Part shown: in pieces, positions 37,711 through 40,042 of the stretch
How positions within the stretch are numbered: position 1 is the stretch's first letter
Layout: each line of letters opens with the position of its first letter
Source of the DNA: Candidatus Woesearchaeota archaeon
GTDB lineage: Archaea; Nanobdellota; Nanobdellia; Woesearchaeales; GW2011-AR9
Assembly: GCA_016179955.1 (NCBI GenBank)
Contig: JACPCD010000035.1
Location: 1-40,695 of the forward strand
Length of the DNA: 40,695 bases
Direction of reading: 5' to 3'
The notes under the pieces: model-generated
The model's database searches: none
What the model saw: the letters and a program-made list of their open reading frames with translations, nothing else
Told to the model about the DNA's origin: nothing
Made by a program: the position numbers and the translations under genes

Positions 37711-38568
37711 ATGAAATTTGATAAAAATCTTGCCGCCATTCATGCGTATCTCTGTGGTGATGGATATGTCATCAAAAATCCATAGACTCAGCAGCATAAA
37801 TATTACTATATTGGACTAAGAAACACGAATGAAGTCTTACTTAAAGATTTTCAACAAAAATTCAAAGCAGTCTTTAATGTTGAACCTCGTATTGTAGAAG
37901 GTCGTAGCGTAATCCAAAATAAAGCAATTTATCAATTCTTAACTACAGATTTTTCTTACTATTCTTACGAATGGTCTTTTCCTCAACTATCAACAGAGAA
38001 CACCAAAGCCTGGCTTCGTGCCTTTTTTGACTGTGAAGGCTGGGTTGAGAATCAACCGGCAAAAAGCAGATTAATTAGTTTGGAATGTTGTAATGAACAA
38101 GGAATTCTTCAAGTTAAAGACGCTCTTGATACATTAGGGATTAGCTCTCAACTTGCCAAGAAAAAAGGCAGAACTATTTGGCGTTTAACTATTTGCGGAA
38201 AAGAAAATATGAGACAGTTTCAATCGAGCATTGATTTTCTCCACCCAGAAAAAAAGCAAAAATTGAAAGAGGCAATAGCTTCTTATGCTAACTATGAATG
38301 GAAAATTCCGACCGCAAAAGAAGAGTTGTTAGCTTTTTTAATGCAAAAAGGGAAAATTTGCAAGATGAGAAATGAATTAAGAGTATTATCCATACTAGAA
38401 CAAAATCTCAAAAATCTGCAGAAAGCTTTAAAAGAACACGGCATCCCTTCCGCTTTGTTGGGGCCATGGAAATCAAGCACCTGTTCCCAATATTATTGCC
38501 TGAAACTAAAAGTAGAGACTATCTATGGAAGAAGCATCAACTCGCCAGCCAAGTGGTCCTCCGTCTGA
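37711..38568 (+). pseudogene. LAGLIDADG homing endonuclease with one in-frame TAG
   Basis: Dodecapeptide motifs LAAIHAYLCGDGYV and KAWLRAFFDCEGWV in one frame from ATG 37711; TAG at 37783-37785. ORF track shows only 38080..38568. Confidence 0.75.
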
Positions 38569-40042
38569 ACTAAAGCACGTGAGTAAGGTGGTTTGGGAAT
38601 TGCCCCTTACCTATAAAAAAGGAATGCTGGTGCCAGCGAGGATCATTGCGAATAAAGAACTTATTGAATCCATGGATGCGGGTGTCTTTAATCAGGTTTC
38701 GAATGTAGCATGTCTTCCGGGAATCCAAAAATATGCATATTGCATGCCCGATGGTCATTTCGTTGGTGAGTAATCACAACGAGACCAGTGGGGCTATGGG
38801 TTCCCAATCGGCGGCGTCGCTGCATTTGATCCTGAACAAGGCGGAGTGATCAGTCCGGGCGGCATTGGATTTGACATTAATTGCGGCATGCGCCTTATCG
38901 TCACCAACCTTACCGCTAAAGACGTCAAGCCCCACATCCATAAACTAGTCGATGCGCTCTATAAAGCCGTTCCCGCCGGTGTGGGCTGCAAAGGGTTCGT
39001 GCGCATTTCCAAAGATGAGTTCAAGAACGTCATGAAAGACGGCGCGCAGTGGTGCCTGAAGAACGGCTATGCGACAGAGGATGACATTAAGCATATCGAA
39101 GATGAGGGCAAAATAGCCCAGGCTAACCCCGCTAAAGTTTCTGAGAAAGCAATTCAACGTGGACTTGATCAACTCGGAACGTTAGGCAGCGGAAATCATT
39201 ATTTAGAAATCCAGGAAGTCCGGGAAGGAAACATTTTCAATAAAGAAGCTGCCAAAGCATTTGGAATCACTGGCCCCGGACAGATTGTCATCATGGTTCA
39301 TTGCGGCAGCCGGGGTATGGGCCATCAGGTGGGAACGGATTATTTGCGTTTATTTCTGGAGGTCATGCCGAAATACGGCATTGAAATCATTGACCGTGAG
39401 CTGGCTTGTGCGCCGTTCAACAGTCCGGAAGGACAGGATTATTATCAAGCCATGGCCTGCGCAGCTAACATGGCCTTTGCCAACCGGCAAGTCATTACCA
39501 GTCAGATCCGGAAAGTGTTCAGCCAGGTGTTTGGAAAATCAGCAGACGATTTAGGGATGAAATTAGTCTATGATGTGGCTCATAATATCGCCAAGCTTGA
39601 GAAATATATTATTGACGGCAAAGAGAAAGAACTGTTGATTCACCGGAAGGGATCGACCAGAGCATTTGGTCCAAAGCACGCGAAATTTCTGCCCAAAGAT
39701 TATGCCCACGTCGGCCAGCCGGTCATCTTAGGTGGCTCGATGGAAACGGGCTCTTATTTATTAGTAGGCACGGACAGCGCCGATGAAACGTTCTCGAGCA
39801 CGGCGCATGGGGCAGGACGAACCATGTCCCGGGCGCAGGCCAAGCGGGAAGTTCGCGGAGATCAACTGCAGAAAGAGATGGAAAAGAAAGGGATTTACGT
39901 GCATGGCGTTACTATGGCTGGATTAGCGGAAGAAGCCGGAAAAGCGTACAAAGATATTGAAGTGGTGGTTGATTCTCTGGAAGCGGCGGGGATTACTCAT
40001 CGGGTGGCTGCGCTCAAGCCCATTGGGAATGTGAAAGGGTAA
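38525..40042 (+). CDS. rtcB: RNA-splicing ligase RtcB, interrupted by a 30-nt BHB intron (join 38525..38758,38789..40042)
   Basis: Exon 1 ...LPGIQKYAYCMPDGH + exon 2 WGYGFPIGGVAAFDPEQGGVISPGGIGFDINCGMRL..., same frame after removing 38759-38788; spliced product 495 aa. Confidence 0.93.
38759..38788 (+). other. Putative BHB intron in rtcB mRNA
   Basis: H GGTC 38753-38756 / GACC 38783-38786; bulges AT^T (38757-38759) and AG^T (38787-38789); inner helix TCGTTG 38760-38765 / CAACGA 38777-38782; loop GTGAGTAATCA includes in-frame TAA 38771-38773. Confidence 0.88.

Follow-up and report, generated by a model that had tools for sequence, protein, structure and literature searches.

The stretch of DNA analyzed here, referred to as the window, comprises 40,695 nucleotides from a Candidatus Woesearchaeota archaeon and carries on its plus strand an interrupted copy of rtcB (38525-40042), the gene for the enzyme that joins spliced RNA ends. 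After codon 78, directly behind the PDGH motif, the gene is broken by exactly 30 nucleotides (38759-38788), which in context read GAT GGT CAT / TTCGTTGGTGAGTAATCACAACGAGACCAG / TGG GGC TAT. Sequence, translation, and relatives together define exon 1 (MEEAST...CMPDGH, 78 amino acids) at 38525-38758, and translation defines exon 2 (WGYGFPIGG...NVKG), which includes the DINCG metal site, at 38789-40042; the protein sequence is conserved on both sides of the insert. Because an in-frame TAA lies within the insert at 38771-38773, the unspliced reading frame (38525-38773) encodes 82 amino acids. A preliminary description of this locus had reported the 30-nucleotide insert, its TAA, and an unspliced fragment of about 82 amino acids, all of which sequence and translation bear out, and had overlooked a gene directly 5' of rtcB. 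This gene (37711-38568, plus strand) encodes a LAGLIDADG homing endonuclease of an rtcB-adjacent family, overlaps the start of rtcB, and is broken by an in-frame TAG (37783-37785) that, on comparison with relatives, is absent at that place from one of them, G013.

The junction in the rtcB transcript can be drawn as an exact bulge-helix-bulge (BHB), the geometry given in the preliminary description. All of its elements lie on the plus strand: a 4-bp central helix pairs GGUC (38753-38756) with GACC (38783-38786), an inner helix pairs UCGUUG (38760-38765) with CAACGA (38777-38782), and two 3-nt bulges, AU/U (38757-38759) and AG/U (38787-38789), sit at the exon borders. The helices are defined by sequence and covariation, and the bulges by sequence and the exon model. 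Cuts predicted after the second nucleotide of each bulge (38758/38759 and 38788/38789) would excise the insert to give CMPDGHWGYGFPIGG, with the WGYGFPIGG motif rebuilt. When the intron letters were shuffled 4000 times, the central and inner helices were never reproduced at that place (p 0.0002). In the unconstrained minimum-energy fold of the junction (-30.9 kcal/mol), both helices and the 5' bulge remain, and an additional pair between U38752 and A38787 closes the 3' bulge, such that the exact BHB costs 3.6 kcal/mol more; this extra pair in the modeled fold is a small caveat. When the 40.7-kb window was scanned under strict criteria for BHBs that restore an open reading frame, four matches emerged, among which only the one in rtcB could be tied to a conserved protein. 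A group I or group II self-splicing intron is ruled out because the inserts are only 12-33 nt long across all modeled rtcB genes, and the catalytic core of either type is far longer.

Judged from their sequences, introns of this kind in rtcB are a recurrent class in Woesearchaeota and their relatives. Explicit exon models identified 45 BHB introns in 35 genomes, each with a shuffle p < 0.02 at its own place, and in 45 of 45 the predicted cuts, made after nucleotide 2 of the 3-nt bulges, restore the protein motif. The insertions form two clusters. Cluster A lies at PDGH/WGY and comprises three positions within PDGH-W-G-Y, namely CAY/TGG (12 introns), CAT TG/G (1), and GGN T/AY (21). Cluster B lies at the DxxC metal site and comprises four positions within GG-I-G-F-D-I-N-C, namely GGA A/TC (3), GGA T/AT GAT (3), GAY/ATH (3), and GAY AT/H (2). 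Ten rtcB genes hold two introns, one per cluster. Lengths range from 29 to 33 nt apart from a 12-nt form, the intron at GGA A/TC, for which the sequence also allows the cut to be placed one base to either side. This 12-nt intron (L135, L137, and L138; GGI/GFD region) has the stop TAA, a central helix, and a perfect CCCG/CGGG outer helix, and it lacks an inner helix.

A gapped-pattern search over the order matched 29 of 353 genomes, while the reversed-pattern control gave zero everywhere, and a phylum-wide pattern search added five genomes from beyond the order. The closest rtcB homologues outside Candidatus Woesearchaeota MAGs are cyanobacterial and Geobacter-type RtcBs, about 63-66% identical and without the insert. 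Excluded from the counts was the rtcB gene of G188 (L145), in which a site-2 intron is accompanied by a frame-breaking deletion of about 46 nt between GGCGG repeats, either a broken gene or an assembly error. An intron call in G007 proved spurious, the gene being intact. Another rtcB match (L139, G251:C9:65773-67203) has a single TGA in its interior, outside both intron clusters. Several rtcB genes (L038, L039, L040, L148, L149, and others) carry inteins at the DINC metal site, near the cluster B introns.

Compensatory changes accompany the conserved geometry. Among 14 introns at site 1, we counted 25 double-changed pair cells, compared with 8.0 in shuffles (0 of 500 as high) and 2-4 in slid controls. 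The corresponding covariation score was 0.486, against 0.184 when shuffled (again 0 of 500 as high) and at most 0.169 in slid controls. Pair types at one inner-helix position of site 1 include GC, CG, UA, and AU, and site 2 displays the same covariation pattern. Just 2 of the 14 have a G-C pair at the distal central position; most site-1 relatives have three of four central pairs with a distal G-A, compared with four in the window. An in-frame stop is present in 45 of 45 introns, where shuffled introns give an expectation of 0.50, a count in which related introns are not independent, though stop type and position differ between sites. The universal stop suggests that unspliced mRNA is kept from yielding full-length protein, and obligatory splicing is favored because the unspliced message is apparently barred from doing so.

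One could instead suppose that the insert is no intron at all, and that ribosomes bypass it or read through its stop, or that the gene is a pseudogene or an assembly error. The window insert is in frame, and splicing here is read from sequence only. Yet many of the inserts in relatives are 31-32 nt long and shift the frame, and readthrough and bypassing are rejected for this reason. Conserved protein flanks the insert on both sides, and inserts whose BHB geometry is kept through compensatory changes recur in independent assemblies, both at this position and at others, so that the assembly artefact that the preliminary description named as a possible refutation is not borne out. We consider a non-intron explanation exceedingly improbable. 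The insert in the window, supported by sequence, fold, exon model, and covariation, is almost certainly a genuine pre-mRNA BHB intron, with the predicted cut positions of the preliminary description upheld by same-site BHBs in independent genomes.

The components needed to splice such an intron are encoded alongside it. The window genome is a MAG of 954 kb in 42 contigs, 81% complete, with a single EndA gene containing N- and C-domains and an archease gene; in a survey of genomes, 34 of 38 yielded EndA and 13 of 13 archease, and complete copies are free of intron-like interruptions. The tRNA-His gene of the window genome (L266 6857-6940, minus strand, G000:C28) has a 12-nt intron at position 37, the canonical place, according to ARAGORN, with a boundary that a separate perfect-BHB fit placed differently. 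A working splicing pathway is supported by the presence of EndA, archease, and this intron-containing tRNA-His. In one family the archease gene lies directly 5' of the intron-bearing rtcB (L173, L180), and there G281 keeps a small endonuclease relic.

The preliminary description had held that RtcB must ligate its own mRNA in order to be made, and had named a second intact rtcB as grounds against this. One rtcB was found in the window genome and no further copy within its 81% completeness, nor was a second rtcB found in the most complete intron-bearing genomes (G085, 99%; G011, 96%; G013, G281, and G294, 95%). A search for an ATP-dependent RNA ligase gave no match in G085, G281, G294, or G013. 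PF09414 matches in G011 and in the window genome have weak scores and fall in long frames of 576-586 amino acids, which we infer to be DNA ligases. Because rtcB is the sole copy and these four near-complete genomes have no RNA ligase match, RtcB is probably the ligase of its own mRNA. Thus, the sole rtcB and the lack of a clear alternative ligase make the self-ligation claimed earlier plausible rather than compelled.

Introns in archaeal protein genes have been regarded as very rare, with cbf5 as the standard case. In the window genome, the catalytic Asp codon of cbf5 (GTL G/AY P; G000:C28 near 24850; L253/L259) is interrupted by a BHB intron of 16 nt, and the comparison with cbf5 made in the preliminary description was apt in this respect as well. 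Such cbf5 micro-introns, 13-18 nt long, occur in five Woesearchaeota-type genomes, the window's own, G002, G196, G288, and G085 (also L250, L252, L254, and L258), at the position described for the crenarchaeal cbf5 intron (PMC2738675). The idea that rtcB is the only host gene is rejected, since cbf5 introns were found in the same genomes. RNA polymerase domain matches of full length from these genomes are uninterrupted. A loose scan for ORF-restoring BHBs returned 786 matches and was useless. With stricter criteria, applied to the window and to 400 kb from three intron-bearing genomes, the scan returned 38 matches compared with 47 in a non-physical control, and thus no hint that mRNA introns abound in that sequence; its sensitivity was 9 of 25 on known single-intron rtcB genes, and it is blind to micro-introns. 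The mRNA introns in these genomes look few rather than general, with at least two RNA-maturation genes as hosts.

The neighboring endonuclease offers a different perspective on how the rtcB introns are maintained. Intact members of its family have two LAGLIDADG_3 domains. The family HMM matched beside rtcB in many intron-bearing genomes, and the whole order was then searched, which gave 17 members at >=42% identity, plus fragments. Sixteen of the 17 adjoin rtcB, on either strand. The 17th (L219, G031:C25:7-582) lies at a contig end, and the rtcB gene of that genome (L004) has no intron. Among rtcB genes with enough flanking sequence, the endonuclease is found beside 16 of 32 that bear an intron and 2 of 43 that are intron-free (Fisher p 6e-6), or 14 of 30 and 1 of 42 when loci found through the endonuclease search are left out. 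Decayed copies are present in the window genome, G002, G094, G188, and G212, with a relic in G281. The link between the intron and an adjacent endonuclease family suggests a selfish origin.

Other observations on this family are less direct. Three endonuclease-adjacent rtcB genes (G316, G066, and G074) have no cluster A BHB intron and instead show changes in the motif (QADQHCGYG, MSDMHWGYGLPMG) or contain an intein, which is weakly compatible with a homing model. Five class-level relatives carry introns and lack this endonuclease. In G020, a relic rtcB 5' end of 187 nt lies upstream of the endonuclease gene, 84% identical to the genome's own exon 1 and ending about seven codons before the site-1 position; this is as expected if the endonuclease gene entered through break repair there, though as a single case it is an anecdote. 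GGG precedes CAY in 9 of 9 site-2 genes of the PDGH type compared with 3 of 40 intron-free genes, a pattern only suggestive of horizontal movement with a co-conversion tract.

It could also be that these are plain BHB introns, created in rare events of reverse splicing or RNA recombination where the sequence happens to fold well, inherited vertically and frequently lost, with the endonuclease as an unrelated passenger. The cbf5 micro-introns in five genomes are in keeping with such an origin, as is the half of intron-bearing rtcB loci at which no endonuclease was detected nearby. The endonuclease tree, which is star-like, is compatible with it too: we looked in the tree for transfer of the endonuclease between families, and it was not demonstrated, as vertical descent within the family was not rejected (p-AU 0.31). 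However, a passenger would hardly be expected to adjoin rtcB in 16 of 17 cases with the 17th at a contig end, to be so unevenly split between intron-bearing and intron-free genes, or to accompany insertion points that differ yet lie close together in a single likely recognition sequence. On balance, we regard an origin without the endonuclease as unlikely.

The distribution of the introns bears on a further possibility. A presence/absence comparison among close relatives, which the preliminary description had proposed, revealed a patchy intron. A tree of 77 RtcB proteins, based on their exon-2 sequence, requires at least 15 changes of intron presence at cluster A, at least 20 of site identity, and at least 11 at cluster B. 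Sister species differ in intron presence (G037/G010 and G024/G040), and one genus holds both sites, no-intron genes, and inteins side by side. Rapid intron turnover is shown by this sequence comparison, as reconstructed on the tree. Autoregulatory splicing, in which the intron would couple RtcB synthesis to free RtcB or EndA activity and the endonuclease would be incidental or only the original source, fits with the stop that always blocks unspliced mRNA (45 of 45, against 0.50 expected), with a host gene that is the sole rtcB in 95-99% complete genomes, and with a second RNA-maturation gene, cbf5, carrying an intron in the same genome. Yet the intron is missing from most relatives, and its presence is not conserved across the lineage as autoregulatory control would require. 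Furthermore, regulation does not need sites that crowd into two conserved motifs, the tie to the endonuclease family is strong, and a ligase required for its own production constitutes positive rather than homeostatic feedback. The autoregulatory loop advanced in the preliminary description is thus not supported as stated, given an intron that is patchy even between sister species and occupies several close positions; patchiness argues against a conserved circuit, and a loop as such is possible. As the main explanation for the introns, we judge autoregulation improbable.

Taken together, the evidence is best explained by BHB splicing of a genuine pre-mRNA intron, and we consider it probable as a whole that EndA cuts the intron, that RtcB joins its own message, and that the intron is kept or spread by collaborative homing; the last component, persistence by collaborative homing, is itself reasonably likely. 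The 30-nt intron would fold in the rtcB pre-mRNA as a bulge-helix-bulge, EndA, the tRNA-splicing endonuclease, would cut both bulges, and RtcB, aided by archease, would ligate exon 1 to exon 2, such that functional ligase would arise only in cells already holding some RtcB. At the DNA level, the free-standing LAGLIDADG endonuclease would cut rtcB alleles that lack the intron, close to the conserved PDGHWGYGFPIGG codons, and the break would be repaired by copying the endonuclease gene and intron together. An intron anywhere within the recognition sequence would then shield its carrier from cutting. In the window, the endonuclease gene has decayed, by one TAG, with the intron left behind. The homing model accounts for the crowding of introns at several positions in a span of a few nucleotides, for the tie between the endonuclease family and rtcB, and for decay of the endonuclease where the intron persists. 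A more far-reaching version, in which RtcB self-ligation is obligate, the ligase is inherited as protein, the gene alone cannot restart the enzyme, the endonuclease has contributed to driving this dependence across an archaeal class, and supply feedback is possible, is one that we put forward tentatively and with some doubt.

This arrangement combines features of several known systems. The cbf5 pre-mRNA intron of Desulfurococcales and Sulfolobales is likewise a short BHB intron (16-44 nt) that has been gained and lost, in an RNA-processing gene, cut between bulge nucleotides 2 and 3, in a catalytic motif (PMC2738675). In contrast to cbf5, the host gene of the rtcB intron encodes the splicing ligase itself. 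Several insertion sites are in use in rtcB, one gene can hold as many as two introns, and a free-standing endonuclease is linked to it; that work describes none of these features for cbf5 (PMC2738675). Collaborative homing is known from phage introns with free-standing endonucleases (PMC10448857). There, as in rtcB, the endonuclease gene lies beside rather than inside the intron-bearing conserved gene, and in both systems the expected target of the endonuclease is the site where the intron inserts, so that intron and endonuclease are acquired; unlike those phage introns (PMC10448857), the rtcB intron belongs to the archaeal BHB type, is 29-33 nt long, and relies on host proteins for splicing, with DNA cleavage as a prediction. 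Archaeal rRNA BHB introns, which encode homing endonucleases (PMC2738675), share with rtcB the combination of BHB splicing and homing-endonuclease mobility, but their endonuclease lies inside the intron, whereas an rtcB intron has nowhere near the length needed for such a gene. The RtcB inteins of relatives are also selfish insertions into rtcB, at the same DxxC site as the cluster B introns; inteins leave the protein, whereas the introns leave the RNA.

We found no rtcB intron in the open-access literature, which does not in itself prove novelty. In these genomes, both rtcB and cbf5 would come out of automated annotation split or truncated. Across dozens of uncultured archaeal species, introns recur in the catalytic motifs of the gene for the very ligase needed for their removal, and their frequent place beside a homing-endonuclease gene suggests that a selfish element accounts for their spread or persistence. 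Through the linked endonuclease, it becomes possible to test directly how such introns originate and spread, and the dependence of RtcB on itself poses a bootstrapping question for the biology of these archaea.
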